10,048 nucleotides of DNA from Candidatus Aenigmatarchaeota archaeon. Its GTDB lineage: Archaea; Aenigmatarchaeota; Aenigmatarchaeia; Aenigmatarchaeales; JAHLMR01. A program made the translations under genes and the position numbers. Below are positions 1 through 9,906 of the stretch, piece after piece (the stretch's first letter is position 1; each line of letters begins with the position of its first letter). The DNA lies in NCBI GenBank assembly GCA_018920255.1, contig JAHLMR010000017.1, positions 1 to 10,048 on the forward strand, read 5' to 3'. The notes below the pieces were generated by a model. The model ran no database searches. It was not told the origin of the DNA and saw nothing but the letters and a program-made list of their open reading frames with translations.

Positions 1-3000
1 ATAATTTTAATTTTGGTGAGGATTGAGTTGTTGAATAAATTTTTGCCTTAACAGTTATTTGAGTATCTGTATAAATTTCTTGAGGTTCAATTAAGATATC
101 TTGGACCGATAAGTCTCCTATTACTATTTGTATTGAATTGTTTGCATAGTTTGTTCCTGTGGTATCATTACAATAAACATTTATGTTATAAATTCCTTCT
201 GAGGAAATTTCTGAAAATTCAAATCTTGTTTCTTGAAAATCAGAAACACTGTCATTAATTGAAATTAAAGTATTATTAACTCTAAAATAGCATGATGCTG
301 GAGAAAATAAAATGTTTGAAACGTTTACTGAAATATTTGAAAATGATAATATCCAAGAAGATGGTGGATTAATAAAATCTGCACAAAATGTATTGTTATC
401 TATTATATTTGTTCCAATTATATTAAATAAACCTTTAGTATTATAACAAATTGTATTGTTTACAAAATTAATATTATTTGAAAAATCTAAATTTGCTCCC
501 CATTCTGTATTATTTTTTAAAGTATTATTTATTACAGAAATATTAAAACATGATATTAGCTCTATTCCATATGTAAAATTTTTAATTATACAGTTTTTTA
601 TTGTGTTGTTTTGTTTATCAGTTAAAAGTATTCCATTATCATGAAATTCACCACCCAAAGAAATGGCCATTCCTGTTATTATGTTTCCTTTACAATCAAA
701 GACTTTATTATTAAAATTTTCTGGATTGTCTATGCATCTAAACTCCTGTGTTATATTATTAATAAGATCTACTTCTGAACATAAAGGATGAGATAATTCA
801 TAGTTGCATTCTCCACAAGATGTACAATTACAACCGTTTGAATTTACTTCACAAATATTATCACAACCAGAAGATCCATCATCATTATATTGAAATGTTA
901 AAATACATTTATTATTATCTCCATAGGTAGAAGGTATTTCATTGTAAATATCTTTATAATAATTATAGCAAAAGCTATTGAAATATAAAATATTATTTTC
1001 ACTACTGCCTCCTATGTCAATTCCTCTACTATTTTCTGTAGCTGTTATGTTTTCTATTAAATTATTATTAGACGAAAATATTGTTTCTATACCATAAAAA
1101 TTTTTGTTTGCCATTATATTTGATAAAATATTGTTTGAGGAAGACTCTAAATAAATTCCAGTATACTCATTTGAGCTTGCATTGTTGTTTGTCAGAATGT
1201 TGTTTGAAGAAGATTCTAAATAAATTCCATTATAATTTGAATTAGCTATAATATCTTTCAAAGTATTATTTGACGAAAAGTATAGATAAACTCCATAATA
1301 ATTTTCAGAAGAATTTATATTTTCAAACTTTGAATCGTTTGTATAATATACAAATAATCCATTATTATTTAATGTTTCAGATCCTATAATAGTAACATTA
1401 GTTATATTAGAACCTGAAGCATTACATAATATTAATTCTGCTAAAACTTTGTTTTGTATATTAGATGGAGAATTAACATATAAAAATTCTCTATTTTCAT
1501 AACTTTTTATATTTTCAAAAATGTTATTACATGCTTCTTCATTCTTTTCAAAAAAATAGATATTAATATCCATTTCTTCATTTTCGCTAACAGTTGCATT
1601 AGATATTAAATTGTTCATTGAATCAGATATTAAAAATCCATAATAATTTTTACTCGAATTTATATTAAATAAACTATTATAATTTGATTTTTCAATTTGA
1701 ATTCCATTAAAATTTTCACTTGCTGTTATGTTTGTTAAGGTATTATTATCTGATAGATAATATATATAAATTCCACTTCCTCCAGTACTTCCATATACTA
1801 CTATATTTGTTAAATTATTATACAAAGAATTGTAAAAACTTATTCCGCTATAACTATTATTATAAAAGGTTAAATTTATTAATAAACTATTATTTGAATA
1901 TAAATAAATTCCTGTATCAAAATTTGAAATTATACAATTTTTTATTGTATTGTTTTGTTTTCCGAATATGAAAAATCCATATTCAATATTATTAAATCCA
2001 CTAATTACATGTCCTTGACAATCAAAAACTTTGTTGTTAAAGTTTTCAGGATTATATATACATGTTCTAGGGTGTTCTAAAATATCAGAAGTAAGTTTTA
2101 TATTTCCACAACTCTCATTATTTATTTTTTCTATACAATCTTCACAATAGGAGCACTCACAAATATTTAATTCACCTAATACACCAAATAAATCTCCAAA
2201 ACTTGTTGTATTCATATAAACATAATTATTTTCAATATCTATCCCACAATTATTTGCAAATTCTGAACAAGAAAACCAACCAGAATTATTAAATTTCCAA
2301 AAAGATAAAGAACTTTCATTTGCATCGATAGATAAATCTATATCATTATAACTTAAATTTAAAAATAAAAATGAATTAGCGCTTGTATTCGTTATGTTAA
2401 TAAATTTAACATATCTAAGGTCTCTTGGAATCGAAGGAATAGAATAAATACTTCCTATTTTCAAATCTCTTAATTCTCCGTATATCACATTAGAATCTAT
2501 ATTCAATTCATGTACAGAAATATTGGAATTTTGTATAGAGTTTAAATTGTATTCAGTATTATTTTGTAAAATATTATAAAATAAGTTAATATTTGAAGAT
2601 GATGCAAAAATTCCACGGTTGTTATTATAAATATTATTAATATAAACATTAGCATTTGAAGACGAGTCTAAATATAATCCTGTTTCAAAATCTTTAATAG
2701 CACATTTAATTATTGTAAAATCACTTTTTCCATTAATTCTAATTCCATAACCACTCCCACTGCCATCAATTACATGTCCTTGACAATCAAAAACTTTGTT
2801 GTTAAAGTTTTCAGGGTTGTCTATACATGTTCCAGAATTGTCTAAAATATCAGAAGTTAAATAAACAATATTACATGAGGGGTTATTTAATGCATCTATA
2901 CAATTTCCACAAGAATTACATTCACATTCATTCCCTTCTGGAATAATTCCTAATGGAGCAAAAATACTTCCAAAATCTATAATATCTAAATTAATAATAT

Positions 3001-4594
3001 TATTATCTTTATCTAAGTTATATTTATTTAAAAATTCAAAAATATTTAATTTCCATTTATTGTTTGTATATTTTGAGGGAAACAATGAATTTTCACTTAT
3101 ACCATTTAAATTTTCATTTTTATAATGAAATGTTATATTTAATTCAGCTGGATTTTCTGTTATTTTTGTAATATTTAAGTAAATTGATATGTTTTTAAAT
3201 TCTAAAGGATCGTTTGGTGCTTCATTTATTGCATTTATTCCTATATCACCAGACAAAACTTCAAAATCTATTACTACTGGATAGGTTTCAGGTGTTTCTC
3301 CTGCTATTGTTTCATTTATAAATGTATTATTTATACTATAAGATCCATAAACAGTATAAGCATTTGTATAGGTTGGATATTCACCATCATAAAATTTTGA
3401 AGTTACATTATAAACAAAATTATTTTTAAAAATATTATGTGACCCTGAATAAATTGCTATTCCATTATCAAGGGTATTAAAAATTGTATTATTTTCAAAA
3501 TAATTATATTCTGAATCTAATATACTTATACCATCTGCGGAATATGGGCTTTCTTCATAGCTAATATCCCAAATAATGTTGTTTTTAACAGTATTATTAT
3601 AAGAATTATCTTCAAATGATATACCTCCAGTATTTATATTCCAAGCCCAAAATCCACATTCATATTTTATATTATGAATTTTATTATTACTTATAATATT
3701 ATTTTTTGAATTTTCAACTGATATGCCACCTATACAACAACTACAATTTATTGTGTTGTTTATAATTCTATTATTATCTGCTCCTATTATAATTCCTTTC
3801 CATGTACCTTCACTATATATAATATTATTTTCAATCGAATCATTAGCGGATTCATATTCTGATATAATGTAATAATTTTTTTCTATATCGCTAGTATAAT
3901 AAAATTTATTATCTTTTATTAAATTTCCACTTCCATAGGAATTTTCAAAAACTGCATTTAAAAAATTATTATTTAAAAATTTATTTGATTCTGAAAGATA
4001 ATTCCAAAAATATAACGATTTAGAATCACTGCCCATAAATGTATTATTTATAAAAGAGTTATTATTTCCTTGACAATTACCATATTCACACATTATTGTT
4101 ATTTCTCCACCATAACAACTATTATTTATAATAAAATTGTTTGAACATTGATAAAAGTATATTGGATAACTCATCTGTAAAGAAGCATTTAAAGTATTAT
4201 TATCTAAAGTATTATTATCTGAATTTTCTAAATAAATTTGCGTATTAAATTCTTTTATTATACAATTTTTTATTGTATTATTGTGCTTCCCGATTAAATA
4301 AATACCCTCCCAGTTTCCAGTTCCGTCAATTACATGCCCCTGGCAATCAAAGATTTTATTAGTAAAATTTTCTGGATTGTCTATACATTTTCCAGAATTG
4401 TCTAAAATATCTGCTGTTAAATAAACAATATTACAATTAGGACTATTCAAAGCATCTATACAATCTCCGCATGAATTGCATTCACATTCTCCATTTCCTA
4501 AATCTATAAAATAACCTGTAATTTTAGGATTATAAAATGAGAATAAAAATAATGAAATAATTACTATTATTCCTACTAAATATCTAACGTGCAT
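1..4594 (-). CDS. Giant Cys-cassette right-handed beta-helix surface protein (C-terminus beyond window)
   Basis: I followed one minus-strand frame from the ATG at 4592-4594 to the left edge and found no stop: 1531 codons, still open. The N-terminus (about residues 5-21, YLVGIIVIISLFLFSFY) is a signal peptide or membrane anchor. The rest is Asn-rich NosD/PbH1-type beta-helix with motifs such as NNTIKNCII, GIYLESSSNN and NNT. Four Cys-rich cassettes begin at residues 37, 557, 812 and 1255, each leading into helix coils. Beta-sandwich domains lie at about 432-550 and 712-808, ending FGSIFAPLG and FGDLFGVLG, like the 'HFSxFA' ends common in surface proteins. From about 1412 come an Ig-like region and a CARDB-like stretch (GDLSVQDILIEP...). 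The family is typically extracellular and binds glycans or partners; the ligand here is unknown. It starts 22 bases after the DUF167 gene, without a ribosome site, so it may be leaderless. N-glycosylation sequons are abundant. The total length and any C-terminal anchor cannot be seen. Confidence 0.9.
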   Translation of the reverse strand, partial: MHVRYLVGIIVIISLFLFSFYNPKITGYFIDLGNGECECNSCGDCIDALNSPNCNIVYLTADILDNSGKCIDNPENFTNKIFDCQGHVIDGTGNWEGIYLIGKHNNTIKNCIIKEFNTQIYLENSDNNTLDNNTLNASLQMSYPIYFYQCSNNFIINNSCYGGEITIMCEYGNCQGNNNSFINNTFMGSDSKSLYFWNYLSESNKFLNNNFLNAVFENSYGSGNLIKDNKFYYTSDIEKNYYIISEYESANDSIENNIIYSEGTWKGIIIGADNNRIINNTINCSCCIGGISVENSKNNIISNNKIHNIKYECGFWAWNINTGGISFEDNSYNNTVKNNIIWDISYEESPYSADGISILDSEYNYFENNTIFNTLDNGIAIYSGSHNIFKNNFVYNVTSKFYDGEYPTYTNAYTVYGSYSINNTFINETIAGETPETYPVVIDFEVLSGDIGINAINEAPNDPLEFKNISIYLNITKITENPAELNITFHYKNENLNGISENSLFPSKYTNNKWKLNIFEFLNKYNLDKDNNIINLDIIDFGSIFAPLGIIPEGNECECNSCGNCIDALNNPSCNIVYLTSDILDNSGTCIDNPENFNNKVFDCQGHVIDGSGSGYGIRINGKSDFTIIKCAIKDFETGLYLDSSSNANVYINNIYNNNRGIFASSSNINLFYNILQNNTEYNLNSIQNSNISVHELNIDSNVIYGELRDLKIGSIYSIPSIPRDLRYVKFINITNTSANSFLFLNLSYNDIDLSIDANESSLSFWKFNNSGWFSCSEFANNCGIDIENNYVYMNTTSFGDLFGVLGELNICECSYCEDCIEKINNESCGNIKLTSDILEHPRTCIYNPENFNNKVFDCQGHVISGFNNIEYGFFIFGKQNNTIKNCIISNFDTGIYLYSNNSLLINLTFYNNSYSGISFYNSLYNNLTNIVVYGSTGGSGIYIYYLSDNNTLTNITASENFNGIQIEKSNYNSLFNINSSKNYYGFLISDSMNNLISNATVSENEEMDINIYFFEKNEEACNNIFENIKSYENREFLYVNSPSNIQNKVLAELILCNASGSNITNVTIIGSETLNNNGLFVYYTNDSKFENINSSENYYGVYLYFSSNNTLKDIIANSNYNGIYLESSSNNILTNNNASSNEYTGIYLESSSNNILSNIMANKNFYGIETIFSSNNNLIENITATENSRGIDIGGSSENNILYFNSFCYNYYKDIYNEIPSTYGDNNKCILTFQYNDDGSSGCDNICEVNSNGCNCTSCGECNYELSHPLCSEVDLINNITQEFRCIDNPENFNNKVFDCKGNIITGMAISLGGEFHDNGILLTDKQNNTIKNCIIKNFTYGIELISCFNISVINNTLKNNTEWGANLDFSNNINFVNNTICYNTKGLFNIIGTNIIDNNTFCADFINPPSSWILSFSNISVNVSNILFSPASCYFRVNNTLISINDSVSDFQETRFEFSEISSEGIYNINVYCNDTTGTNYANNSIQIVIGDLSVQDILIEPQEIYTDTQITVKAKIYSTTQSSPKLKL
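590..832 (-). repeat. Cys cassette, copy 4 (residues 1255-1335)
   Basis: Most diverged copy: CNCTSCGEC followed by a Cys at 1272, FRCIDNPENF (Cys 1287), FDCKGNII (Cys 1301) and IKNCII (Cys 1335). The spacing of the first five cysteines is the same as in the other copies; the later part carries small length changes. The beta-helix that follows it is short and runs into Ig-like sequence. Confidence 0.8.
1131..1229 (-). repeat. Tandem beta-helix coil repeat (23-residue period)
   Basis: The 30-base segments 1131-1160 and 1200-1229 differ at only two positions by eye and lie 69 bases apart, 23 codons. They encode GIYLESSSNN followed by IL. This is one turn of a right-handed beta-helix, with Asn pairs at the ladder position, and the same motif recurs more loosely through the protein. 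Confidence 0.8.
1934..2161 (-). repeat. Cys cassette, copy 3 (residues 812-887)
   Basis: Cysteines at 812, 814, 817, 820, 829, 845, 859 and 887. The first seven are exactly 255 residues after those of copy 2. The segment encoding ENFNNKVFDCQGHVI is identical to copy 2 at the DNA level (see the 48-base repeat). The linker before it (CSYCEDCIEKINNESC) is more diverged than the NFNNKVFDCQGH part. Confidence 0.85.
2003..2050 (-). repeat. 48-base perfect direct repeat, copy B
   Basis: Partner of 2768-2815, in cassette 3. The flanks diverge quickly (attatatata here against gttgtctata there, then both read catgtt), so the identical tract is shorter than the protein repeat that contains it. Confidence 0.92.
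2165..2460 (-). other. Beta-sandwich domain 2 in the giant protein
   Basis: Residues about 712-808, the counterpart of domain 1: LFLNLSYNDIDLSIDANESS, then FWKFNNSGWFSCSEF, then GIDIENNYVYMNTTSFGDLFGVLGE. It lies directly before cassette 3, just as domain 1 lies before cassette 2. The module 'cassette, helix, sandwich' is therefore repeated. Two extra cysteines in this copy (SCSEFANNCG) could form a local disulfide. Confidence 0.5.
2702..2926 (-). repeat. Cys cassette, copy 2 (residues 557-631)
   Basis: Cysteines at 557, 559, 562, 565, 574, 590, 604 and 631. Every one sits exactly 520 residues after its counterpart in copy 1, with no insertion or deletion in the unit. The DNA is also similar, including shared runs of about 20 bases near 2832-2852/4392-4412 and 2857-2876/4417-4436. 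This points to duplication of a whole cassette. Confidence 0.85.
2768..2815 (-). repeat. 48-base perfect direct repeat, copy A
   Basis: This segment is base-for-base identical to 2003-2050. It is in frame, 765 bases (255 codons) apart, and encodes the PENFNNKVFDCQGHVI core of cassette 2. Identity at third codon positions indicates recent duplication or gene conversion rather than protein-level selection alone. Confidence 0.92.
2945..3300 (-). other. Beta-sandwich domain 1 in the giant protein
   Basis: Residues about 432-550. It has the rhythm of a recurring surface-protein domain: an ITFHYKNENLNGISENSL segment, then NKWKLNIFEF, then LDKDNNIINLDIIDFGSIFAPLG. In relatives this reads roughly 'DE.sL.ly.yn.g.W ... 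d...N.v...v.HFS.FA'. It separates the first beta-helix from cassette 2. Assignment is from memory of the pattern. Confidence 0.55.
4262..4486 (-). repeat. Cys cassette, copy 1 (residues 37-111)
   Basis: Coding repeat unit. Cysteines at residues 37, 39, 42, 45, 54, 70, 84 and 111 form the pattern CxCxxCxxC, a further Cys after ALNSPN, then GKCIDNPENF, FDCQGHVIDG and IKNCII. The first five lie before the first beta-helix coil, so they probably form a disulfide-stabilised N-cap; a metal site is also possible. Confidence 0.85.
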
Positions 4595-4612
4595 ATACAA
4601 TTATTATTTTTT

Positions 4613-6210: not shown

Positions 6211-6219
6211 TTTTTAAAG
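6211..6219 (-). promoter_or_regulatory. Putative TATA box of aspS
   Basis: CTTTAAAAA on the minus strand, centred about 37 bases before the aspS ATG, which would give an 11-base leader carrying the GTGAT site. hppA has the same geometry. The box contains the TAA stop of the upstream ThyX-like gene. Read-through from upstream is equally possible. Confidence 0.35.
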
Positions 6220-7425
6220 TTGAAGTATTTCATAATTAGAAGAAAGTTTTTCTAGGAAATCTATTAAATCTAATTTTTCTTTATTATAAATAGGACAAGT
6301 CGAATGCTTTGATTTAAATGTTGAAGGTTCTGTACATCTTTTTTCTCTATAACATTTTGGTCCTATATCTCTTTTTCCCAATTCATATAATTTTTTTGTT
6401 ACAGGAATAGCAAGATTTCTTATTTCCCATTGTGATGTTCCGCATATTCTAGAATTACAAAAATTATAAATTCCTTTATCATATCCATATATGTCAACTT
6501 CTGCAGATTGTCCTAAAAGTAAATAATAAACAAAATTAGGATTTTTTTCTTCAAGAAGTTCTGTTTGCTTTTCCAATGAATCTTTTGCTACTTCTTTATA
6601 TATTTCTTTTGCATCTTTTCCAAAGTTAGGTGGTATTATAAATTTTCTTTTTCTTACTATACTTTCAACTGGTTCAATTTTTATTTCTAATTCTCTTTGA
6701 CGAACAAGCTGAGCAAGTGAAGATAAACTATTATGCTCTGAATGAAAATATAATGAATATTTTTCTTTACATTTTGAGAAACTCATATAACTTTCTTTAG
6801 ATTCATAATTTCCAAAAATTTTCCATTCTTCTACTTTTTCTTCTTTTGGTTCAAAACCTTCAATATCTTTCACTATTTTAGATAAATTTTCTCCAATATC
6901 TTTTAATTCTTTAAGTTCTGAATTTTTTAATGTAGAACCAAGCTTATTTATATATCTTGAAGGCATAGAAATAATTGCTCTTGTAGTTGCTGCTTCAGGA
7001 ATTATATATCTTGCATCTTGAATTGGTATTCCTTTTTCAATTAATTTTTCATATTTTTCTAATATATTATAATAATAATTCTTATCTATTTCTTTAACAT
7101 GATTTTCAGGTTTAACTAATCTTAAAGATGTTTCAATTCCTGAACCATAAATTTCTTTTTGTGAAGATATCATATTCCAAATTGAAAGCATTGAAAATCT
7201 TGAAATATCATCGAATATAACTGCTGGAGAATTTATTTCATAAATTATATTGTGACCAAAACTATTAACTATTTTTTCTATTAATTTTGATTTTTCTTTC
7301 TCTGACATTTCTTTAACTTTATTTATAATTTCATTTGTAGATATTTTAAAATTTGTTTGTGAAAAATAAGCTGCAATACACTGAATTGTTAAAATATCTT
7401 CATTTATTAAAGAAATATTTGGCAT
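6214..7425 (-). CDS. Tandem, degenerate ThyX-like protein (flavin-dependent thymidylate synthase family)
   Basis: 403 residues that read as two ThyX-like domains; single-domain ThyX is usually about 220-300. ThyX makes dTMP from dUMP using FAD, NADPH and methylene-tetrahydrofolate. Domain 1 (about 1-190) has NSFGHNIIYE (54-63), DDISR (72-76) and the strong GIPIQDARYIIPEAATTRAI (132-151), but where the flavin-binding RHRx7S motif belongs it reads ISSQKEIYGSGIETS. Domain 2 (about 205-403) keeps a variant LVRQR (240-244), YYLLLGQ (300-306), CGTSQWEIR (328-336) and a Cys tail (GPKC, KRC, TC at 358, 364, 377) resembling the end of the QWEIR-type ThyX subfamily, but lacks the DAR motif. The halves have thus lost different motifs; active sites could be shared between them, or the enzyme may be inactive. 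The gene appears leaderless, with a TATA-like box 25 bases upstream. Confidence 0.75.
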   Translation of the reverse strand: MPNISLINEDILTIQCIAAYFSQTNFKISTNEIINKVKEMSEKEKSKLIEKIVNSFGHNIIYEINSPAVIFDDISRFSMLSIWNMISSQKEIYGSGIETSLRLVKPENHVKEIDKNYYYNILEKYEKLIEKGIPIQDARYIIPEAATTRAIISMPSRYINKLGSTLKNSELKELKDIGENLSKIVKDIEGFEPKEEKVEEWKIFGNYESKESYMSFSKCKEKYSLYFHSEHNSLSSLAQLVRQRELEIKIEPVESIVRKRKFIIPPNFGKDAKEIYKEVAKDSLEKQTELLEEKNPNFVYYLLLGQSAEVDIYGYDKGIYNFCNSRICGTSQWEIRNLAIPVTKKLYELGKRDIGPKCYREKRCTEPSTFKSKHSTCPIYNKEKLDLIDFLEKLSSNYEILQL

Positions 7426-7445
7426 GAAAATAAATAATTAGAAAA

Positions 7446-7454
7446 ATTTATAAG
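7446..7454 (-). promoter_or_regulatory. Putative TATA box of the ThyX-like gene
   Basis: CTTATAAAT, the best TATA match in the window, is centred about 25 bases before the ATG at 7425, with no ribosome site between. This is the classic arrangement of an archaeal leaderless transcript. It starts just one base past the TAA stop (7456-7458) of the pyrophosphatase-like gene, so the ThyX-like gene has a plausible promoter separate from hppA. Confidence 0.55.
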
Positions 7455-7455
7455 A

Positions 7456-7923
7456 TTATTCCTTAGAATGTTTTCTTAAATACAATTCATATGATTTTTT
7501 TAAGATTTTTTTTGCTTCTTCATTATTAAAATATTTAATATTACTTGCATTTGGATAAATTGAAAAAATAATTTTTTCAATATTTTCTACTTGTGATTTA
7601 GATAAATGTTTTATATCGGAAATTTTTTTAAAATTGTTATCTTCTTTTAATGTTAAAAGAATTTTATCATCATATAAGCTTTTATTTAAAAATATTCTTA
7701 TGCACCCTATTACATTAAATTCAGCAAAACTTCCTTGTGTAATTTTTTCTTCTGTTAAAATTATAGCATCTAATGGCTCTAAATCAAGTCCATATGTATT
7801 TAAAATTAAACCTAATGGGAATGGAATTTCATTTTTAAGAATAGAGTTTAAATAAAATTTTCCATTTTTATATTTATAAATAATTCTACTTCCAGATTCT
7901 GAAACAACTAAAACTTCTGACAT
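7456..7923 (-). CDS. Divergent class I inorganic pyrophosphatase homologue, probably catalytically impaired
   Basis: 155 residues from the ATG at 7921-7923. By eye it aligns over its whole length with soluble class I pyrophosphatase (ppa, about 175 residues): VVSESG with VIEIP, then NTYGLDLEPLDAIIL with the DGDPxDvlv metal loop, QGSFAEFNVIGCIRIF with the pG...vG.l.m strand, YDDKILLTLKED with D.K.lav..ed, ISDI with the di.Dv segment, and a C-terminal helix EEAKKILKKSYELYLRK. Against E. coli numbering Asp65, Asp70, Asp102 and Lys104 are kept (here D47, D52, D85, K87); Asp67 is Glu49, Asp97 is Asn80, and Lys29, Glu31, Arg43 and Lys142 appear replaced. An N-terminal metal-ligand Glu20 may survive as Glu9. 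Activity is therefore doubtful. It follows hppA by 12 bases, so it is probably co-transcribed, and a regulatory or scaffold role is conceivable. TTG at 7932 is a weaker start. Confidence 0.7.
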   Translation of the reverse strand: MSEVLVVSESGSRIIYKYKNGKFYLNSILKNEIPFPLGLILNTYGLDLEPLDAIILTEEKITQGSFAEFNVIGCIRIFLNKSLYDDKILLTLKEDNNFKKISDIKHLSKSQVENIEKIIFSIYPNASNIKYFNNEEAKKILKKSYELYLRKHSKE

Positions 7924-7927
7924 ATTT

Positions 7928-7932
7928 ATCAA
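7928..7932 (-). promoter_or_regulatory. Weak ribosome binding site choosing the ATG at 7923
   Basis: TTGAT four bases before the ATG resembles the GTGAT and GGTGAT sites of aspS and hppA at the same spacing. The upstream TTG at 7930-7932, which would add three residues, is part of this site and has no such sequence before it, so the ATG is preferred. Confidence 0.4.
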
Positions 7933-7935
7933 TTT

Positions 7936-9906
7936 TTACATTAAAGCAAAACTTGCAATTAATGCTGCAAACAGCAAAGCAATAATATTAACTACTTTTA
8001 TTAATGGATTTATTGCTGGTCCTGCTGTATCTTTAAATGGATCTCCAACAGTATCTCCTACAACAGCTGCTTTGTGTGCATCTGAACCCTTTCCACCAAA
8101 GTTTCCCTCTTCTATATATTTCTTAGCATTATCCCATGCTGCTCCTCCTGTTGTCATTTGCAATGCTAACAAAAGACCAGAAATTATAATACCTCCTAAA
8201 AGACCACCCAATGCATATAATCCAAATACAAAACCAACAATTAATGGTGCTAAAACAGCAATTAATCCTGGAATTATTAATTCTTTTTGTGCTGCAGCTG
8301 TTACTATATCAACACATTTTGCATAATCTGGTTTTGCTTTAAATTCCATTATACCTGGAATTTCTTTAAACTGTCTTCTTACTTCATTTACAATTTTAAA
8401 TGCTGCTCTTCCAACTGCTTGCATGCAAAATGAAGAAAATAGAAATGGTAATGAAGCACCAATAAATAATCCAACTAAAACTTTTGGATTCATTAAATCT
8501 AAAACAAAATTAGATATTCCTAAACTATATACCGTATCTACATATGCACTAAATAAAACTAGAGCTGCTAAACCAGCACTTCCTATTGCAAATCCTTTTG
8601 TTACAGCTTTTGTTGTATTACCAACTGCATCTAAAGCATCTGTTACTTTTCTAGTATTTTCAGGGAGACCTGACATTTCAGCAATTCCACCAGCATTATC
8701 AGTTATAGGGCCAAACGAATCAATTGAAATAATTATTCCCGTCATAGATAGCATTGCCATAGCAGCTATTGCTATACCATATAAACCTCCAAGCATATAT
8801 GCAAAAATTATTCCTAAAGAAATAATTATAACCGGAATAAATGTACTCTTTAAACCAACAGCAAGACCTGTTATTATATTAGTACCTGGTCCTGTTTTAG
8901 AAGATTCAGCAATTGATTTTACTGGAGAATATTTTTTTGATGTCCAATAATCTGTTATAATAATCATAGCAGCAGTTACAAATAAACCTATTAATGAAGT
9001 ATAAAATAAATTAATTTCTAAGTTTAAATTAATAGTTGCATAATAAAAACCTATTGCTGTTATTATAGATGCAACGATAACTCCCTTATATAATGCTCCC
9101 ATTATTGACTCTGATTTTCCAAGTCTTACAAAAAATATACTTATAATTGTTGCAATAATAGCAACAGCACCTAAAACAAGTGGGTAAATGATGTTTATTG
9201 TTGTTGTAGCTAAAAGCATTGCTGCTAAAGCTGTAACAACATATGTTTCAAACAAATCTGCTCCCATTCCAGCACAATCTCCAACATTATCTCCAACATT
9301 ATCTGCTATAACTGCTGGGTTTCTTGGATCATCTTCAGGAATTCCTTTTTCAACCTTTCCAACTAAGTCAGCACCTACATCTGCTGCTTTTGTATATATT
9401 CCTCCTCCAACTCTTGCAAAAAGAGAAATTAAGGATGCACCAAAACCAAAACCAACTAATAATTTTGGATCTCCAAATAAAATGTAAAGAAAACTTATTC
9501 CAAGTAAACCTAAACTAACTATTGTTAAACCTGTAACTGCACCAGCTTTAAATGCAAGACCAAAAGCTTTTTTAAGACCTTCTGATGCTATTGCTGCTGT
9601 ACGAACATTTGCTCTAACTGAAATATTCATTCCTATAAATCCTGCTAACGCAGAAAGAAATGCTCCTAAAAGAAATCCTAATGCTGTTTGCCAATTTAAA
9701 GAAATATAAAGTATTATTGCTAATATAACAGCAAAAACTGATATTACCTTATATTGTCTTAATAAATATGCTGAAGAGCCTGATTGTATTGCATTTGCTA
9801 TTTCCTTCATTTTTTGATTTCCTGCATTTTTTCTTAAAACATCCCATGTTAAAAATGCTGCAATTAAAATGCCAAGTATTCCTGCTAAAAATGCTATTTC
9901 TATCAT
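7936..9906 (-). CDS. hppA: Membrane-bound proton-pumping pyrophosphatase, K+-independent type
   Basis: Integral membrane enzyme that couples pyrophosphate hydrolysis to proton export. The 656 residues are close to the family's lower size range, with about 15-17 hydrophobic segments. The catalytic motifs are complete: [20 protein letters not shown] (176-195), [19 protein letters not shown] (202-220), [19 protein letters not shown] (394-412), and the C-terminal [10 protein letters not shown] (591-600) with [20 protein letters not shown] (606-625), which supply the acidic Mg-pyrophosphate ligands and lysines. [15 protein letters not shown] (429-443) carries Lys433 where K+-dependent enzymes have Ala, and Thr436; this marks the K+-independent H+-pumping class. 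The ATG at 9904-9906 has GGTGAT three bases before it. A divergent soluble pyrophosphatase homologue follows 12 bases downstream. Such pumps let energy-limited cells recover energy from biosynthetic pyrophosphate. No truncation or frameshift is visible. Confidence 0.98.

Follow-up and report, generated by a model that had tools for sequence, protein, structure and literature searches.

A degenerate class I pyrophosphatase, probably retained for a non-catalytic role, beside the ion-pumping pyrophosphatase gene of an aenigmatarchaeon

The stretch of DNA analysed here (the window) is a whole contig of 10,048 bp, from a genome of 552 kb that is 94.6% complete and has 25% G+C. Its minus strand carries hppA (7936..9906), which encodes a membrane-bound ion-pumping pyrophosphatase of 656 aa that is intact by profile (PF03030, 919.7 bits; NF001959, 1014.6 bits, over the cut-off), contains a 19-residue motif and the motif GNTTKA, and is single copy in the genome. 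The lysine of GNTTKA is typical of K+-independent H+-PPases. On the same strand, after an unstranded gap of exactly the 12 bp noticed earlier (7924..7935, from the hppA stop to the ppa ATG), lies a gene for a degenerate class I inorganic pyrophosphatase, which we call pseudo-ppa (7456..7923 including the stop; 155 aa, or 158 aa from an alternative TTG start at 7932). Since no terminator-like site was found on either strand of 7300-8100, the two genes are likely co-transcribed, and pseudo-ppa is presumably expressed. Downstream lies a ThyX-like gene (6214..7425, minus strand; PF02511, 73.1 bits), whose product is unusual in its length (403 aa) and divergence (TIGR02170, 49 bits for a cut-off of 87.9). 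At the far end of the window (2-4600, minus strand), an open frame of more than 1,500 codons with NosD and right-handed beta-helix repeats runs off the contig and probably encodes a large surface protein.

The hppA-ppa pair precedes thyX and aspS in this genome and stands outside the operon in which relatives carry ppa, as the rpo7-S24e-kae1 genes are on a different contig (G000:C2); hppA and rpo7 each lie at a contig end. The gene order has thus been rearranged, as the thyX-like gene occupies the place that rpo7 has in relatives. We found no second soluble pyrophosphatase of class I or class II in the genome, HAD-type pyrophosphatases being inseparable by profile, and HppA is, by these profiles, its only recognised intact pyrophosphatase.

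Judging from profile and predicted fold, the 155-aa gene is a class I pyrophosphatase by descent. Its product matches PF00719 with 54.9 bits (cut-off 23.5; E 1.1e-14), with residues 16-148 aligned to positions 15-152 of the 153 of the profile. A phmmer search of the PDB returned only class I pyrophosphatases or unnamed relatives (best E 1.3e-8). The AlphaFold2 model (mean pLDDT 76, pTM 0.72, poor at the N-terminus) had class I pyrophosphatases as all of its 50 listed top Foldseek matches (probability 1.00, TM ~0.65). The end-to-end homology to soluble class I enzymes that the earlier note had read from the letters is thus borne out by the two checks it had proposed, a profile search and a structure prediction. 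The protein shares this near full-length homology and predicted fold with members of the family such as E. coli Ppa and the Thermococcus thioreducens IPPase, and it scores below the cut-off of the NCBIfam equivalog models for inorganic pyrophosphatase (best 44.3 bits vs 247). A search for related loci with the 155-aa protein as query returned none, and the alignment of the degenerate copies described below is too variable to serve as a search model. The frame itself appears to be under selection, as its codon-position composition (G+C of 0.30/0.23/0.08 at positions 1/2/3, a pattern shared by the neighbouring genes) and its lack of stops both exceed chance. A chance open reading frame was rejected: 155 open codons have a probability of ~7e-7 at the given base composition, and none of 20,000 shuffled sequences kept the frame open.

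The degeneracy concerns the active site. Residues were numbered after the E. coli enzyme in a MAFFT alignment, for a catalytic set of 14 (E20, K29, E31, R43, Y51, Y55, D65, D67, D70, D97, D102, K104, Y141 and K142). The window protein differs from class I pyrophosphatases in having replaced nine of them (E20V, K29I, E31K, R43S, Y51F, Y55L or a gap, D67E, D97N and K142P), and it retains D65, D70, D102, K104 and Y141. All five replacements suspected from the sequence at the outset (Lys29, Glu31, Arg43, Asp97 to Asn and Lys142 to Pro) are among the losses, and the aspartate region and D.K segment thought to be conserved did keep D65, D70, D102 and K104, but D67 has become a glutamate. This last residue corresponds to yeast Asp117, which contacts the attacking water (PMC11210485). 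R43, D67, D97 and K142 lie in nearly ungapped blocks relative to bacterial pyrophosphatases, which makes their assignment nearly independent of the alignment and rules out a misalignment masking an intact site at these positions. Y51/Y55 and Y141/K142 move between alignments, and the two tyrosines Y51 and Y55 are the weakest assignments. We infer that the protein lacks catalytic activity. Taken on its own, it shows no excess of catalytic loss, having kept 5/14 active-site positions and 7/19 of the other invariant ones.

Similar proteins occur elsewhere in the phylum. Among its 156 genomes surveyed (G000-G155), 17, from seven families, encode degenerate class I pyrophosphatases that miss 8-13 of the 14 residues. 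Most intact class I copies lack only 0-1 of them, so that loss is bimodal; one more protein, in G108, lacks six residues, and we excluded a short one from G004. The latter is an extra PF00719 protein of 115 aa (L081:1110-1457) beside the degenerate operon copy, and short PF00719 matches with low scores are found repeatedly in the phylum of G156. None of the 17 degenerate copies keeps D67 or D97, while Asp70 is kept in 82% and Asp102 in 65% of them, and the D65/D70/D102 triad is retained in families f1, f2 and f6. Mean retention across the 17 copies is lower at catalytic than at other invariant positions (0.31 vs 0.51, p = 0.025). These relatives of the window gene are under purifying selection, with dN/dS of 0.17 (G006/G007) and 0.24 (G091/G092) in same-genus pairs; synonymous changes are saturated in the pairs of family f26. 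The window gene, whose family is represented here by a single genome, is without close relatives and sits on the longest terminal branch of the pyrophosphatase tree (1.84); its own evidence for selection is the coding signal. The pyrophosphatase and Rpo7 trees did not recover the number of independent loss events. In place of hppA, two genomes with a degenerate copy (G010 and G011) carry another copy that is intact. As many as 33 of the 156 genomes, some of them incomplete, lack intact class I pyrophosphatase, class II pyrophosphatase and HppA altogether, and it is possible that they encode an unrecognised pyrophosphatase.

Divergence alone does not strip these residues, because divergent pyrophosphatases elsewhere keep them. 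A second set of class I pyrophosphatases, from the phylum to which a named Micrarchaeota genome belongs (L234-L248, in G533, G588, G600 and others), resembles the window protein in being full-length, in its low Pfam scores (~98-134 bits) and in its small archaeal host genomes. Unlike the window protein, these enzymes keep K29, R43, D65, D67, D70, D97, D102 and K104 (with D67E in one), are changed mainly at E31 (to V/I/A), Y51 and Y141 (to N), and have no operon markers nearby. Several of their host genomes also carry a canonical copy. The aspartates are also retained in two operon copies with low scores from the phylum of Candidatus Nanoarchaeia STA_6. Of the 20 pyrophosphatases examined in these comparison phyla, only those of G558 and G775 appear degenerate. 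The loss of catalytic aspartates is thus mostly confined to the phylum of the window.

The degenerate copies share a genomic location. All but one of the 17 lie in the order PIN-ppa-rpo7-S24e-kae1, some truncated by contig ends, where rpo7 encodes RNA polymerase subunit E', and many intact ppa copies of the phylum occupy the very same slot as the degenerate copies of their relatives. In 12 genomes (families f8, f11 and f15), the slot contains hppA instead of ppa, flanked by both PIN and rpo7. Both genes are present in G013 and G093, where hppA is followed by a degenerate ppa and then by rpo7 (G013 also has the PIN gene upstream), and in f26, where the degenerate ppa is in the slot and hppA lies on the opposite strand between S24e and kae1. 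Operonic hppA genes are scattered in a quickly built hppA tree, which suggests that the slot was entered several times or that it was exchanged between lineages. One contig (G143:C3, L130) has a tandem hppA pair. In STA_6 (L144), whose genome has no PF00719 protein, hppA stands divergently beside rpo7-S24e-kae1, so that it has reached this operon in another phylum as well.

We favour, with a probability of roughly 0.64, the explanation that the pseudo-ppa protein is a displaced class I orthologue, catalytically dead and kept for a non-catalytic role after hppA took the ppa slot. The order of events that we infer would start from a soluble class I ppa within PIN-ppa-rpo7-S24e-kae1. The entry of hppA into this slot, which would be the historical reason for the adjacency of the two genes, would have transferred pyrophosphate removal to the pump. 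The catalytic residues of the soluble copy would have disappeared next, which at the same time would have stopped it from wasting pyrophosphate, the fuel of the slower pump. Finally, this copy would have been spared the deletion that it suffered in most hppA lineages, and the folded non-catalytic protein kept. Experimental work makes the first steps plausible. Soluble pyrophosphatase is essential in E. coli since pyrophosphate needs removal, and the HppA of Rhodospirillum rubrum can substitute for it, more slowly (PMC9959109; PMC8575175); against an active soluble enzyme, it is believed to lose the competition for pyrophosphate (PMC9959109). That HppA can replace the soluble enzyme but presumably not compete with it gives a reason for displacement and for the loss of catalysis, not for retention. 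In agreement with displacement, hppA and intact class I ppa avoid each other, sharing only 5 genomes of the 74 and 39 that have them (p = 3e-7), and the operon ppa is degenerate in 12/17 genomes with another pyrophosphatase vs 3/19 without (p = 0.002, although genomes are not independent).

The dead protein might instead be a partner that binds HppA and regulates it, acts as a sensor or helps in its assembly, at least where the two genes are adjacent. The two genes are indeed neighbours on the same strand in G000 (the window genome, 12 bp apart), G013 and G093, they have remained together outside the operon in G000, and the HppA proteins of G000, G013 and G091/G092 form one clade whose four genomes all keep a degenerate ppa. 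Yet, adjacency is expected after insertion into the ppa slot, hppA is missing or unlinked in most other genomes with a degenerate copy, and in f26 it lies on the opposite strand, separated from ppa by rpo7 and S24e. The survey of relatives suggested by the earlier note thus recovered the same kind of substitutions in 17 genomes, and adjacency to hppA in three of them. Degenerate copies are not enriched in genomes with hppA (10/17 vs 64/139, p = 0.44), seven of the 17 genomes that have them lack hppA, a degenerate ppa is absent from most of the 74 genomes with hppA, and most of these 74 have no ppa whatever. Similarly, none of eight named archaea with HppA encodes a PF00719 protein. Hence, neither gene needs the other as a rule, the HppA-bound function first envisaged is not supported as a generality, and we regard even its lineage-specific version as unlikely. 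A pyrophosphate sensor, another of the early suggestions, is also unlikely because K29, R43, Y55 and K142, with which class I enzymes hold their pyrophosphate, are among the losses.

Could the protein still be an enzyme that hydrolyses pyrophosphate slowly, or another phosphoanhydride, using what is left of its metal site (D65, D70, D102 and K104)? The triad kept in f1, f2 and f6 would fit such an activity, and so would the five f2 genomes (G004-G008) that have a degenerate copy and lack hppA, class II and intact class I pyrophosphatases: either an unrecognised pyrophosphatase is present there or the degenerate copies still work, which counts against the favoured explanation. These five are part of the 33 genomes mentioned above, the other 28 of which likewise lack all three enzymes. 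The universal loss of D67 and D97, with K29, R43 and K142 also gone from the window protein, argues against residual catalysis, as does the persistence of the catalytic Asp, Lys and Arg in the divergent Micrarchaeota enzymes, and we find this explanation quite improbable. A functionless gene on its way out, held for now by its place in the operon, would account for the loss of ppa in one f26 genome (G101) whose relatives keep it, for the at least 12 operons that have hppA and no ppa, and for the window copy being the most divergent. It is difficult to reconcile with open frames persisting in 17 genomes of seven families across deep divergence, with the low dN/dS of the same-genus pairs (0.17-0.24) and with the codon-position signal of the window gene, and is in our opinion very improbable.

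Retention of a displaced orthologue for a non-catalytic role is therefore the explanation that we retain. That these proteins keep their fold, are under purifying selection and occur with and without hppA points towards a role that is non-catalytic and independent of HppA, most likely binding or scaffolding. If one has to guess, the transcription-translation machinery would be the obvious starting point for a search, given the neighbouring gene for RNA polymerase subunit E'. One may go further and speculate that the soluble pyrophosphatase of archaea fulfils, besides catalysis, a second function that is linked to this transcription-translation operon and that the takeover by HppA exposed; we hold this broader idea only tentatively.

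How unusual is this pair of genes? The earlier note knew of no description of such a pair, and this needs to be separated into two parts. Neighbouring hppA and soluble ppa genes do occur in bacteria: ppa was found within 5 kb of hppA in 15/80 named loci, all bacterial and mostly from Proteobacteria. In species of Polynucleobacter, Variovorax and Methylibium, for example, the class I ppa is within a few kb, as here. However, the soluble enzyme has 14/14 catalytic residues in 15/15 of these loci, and gene order and strand mostly differ from those of the window. HppA itself, of which the window gene is an intact member (PF03030), is not homologous to the pseudoenzyme. The degenerate state, on the other hand, was absent from the open-access literature that we searched, which reported no class I pyrophosphatase pseudoenzyme, no archaeal PIN-ppa-rpo7 operon and no hppA in its place. 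Older work reportedly described natural inactive family I pyrophosphatases in photosynthetic bacteria. The family is thus a known one, and what is new is that the gene is degenerate yet conserved, and that this state is linked to displacement in place.

Overall, pyrophosphatase is usually viewed as a purely housekeeping enzyme. A dead ppa that is under selection, in the same operon as an ion pump, would be a natural experiment separating the catalytic from the other roles of this protein. It would also show how small archaeal genomes may stop wasting the energy of pyrophosphate and charge the membrane with it instead.
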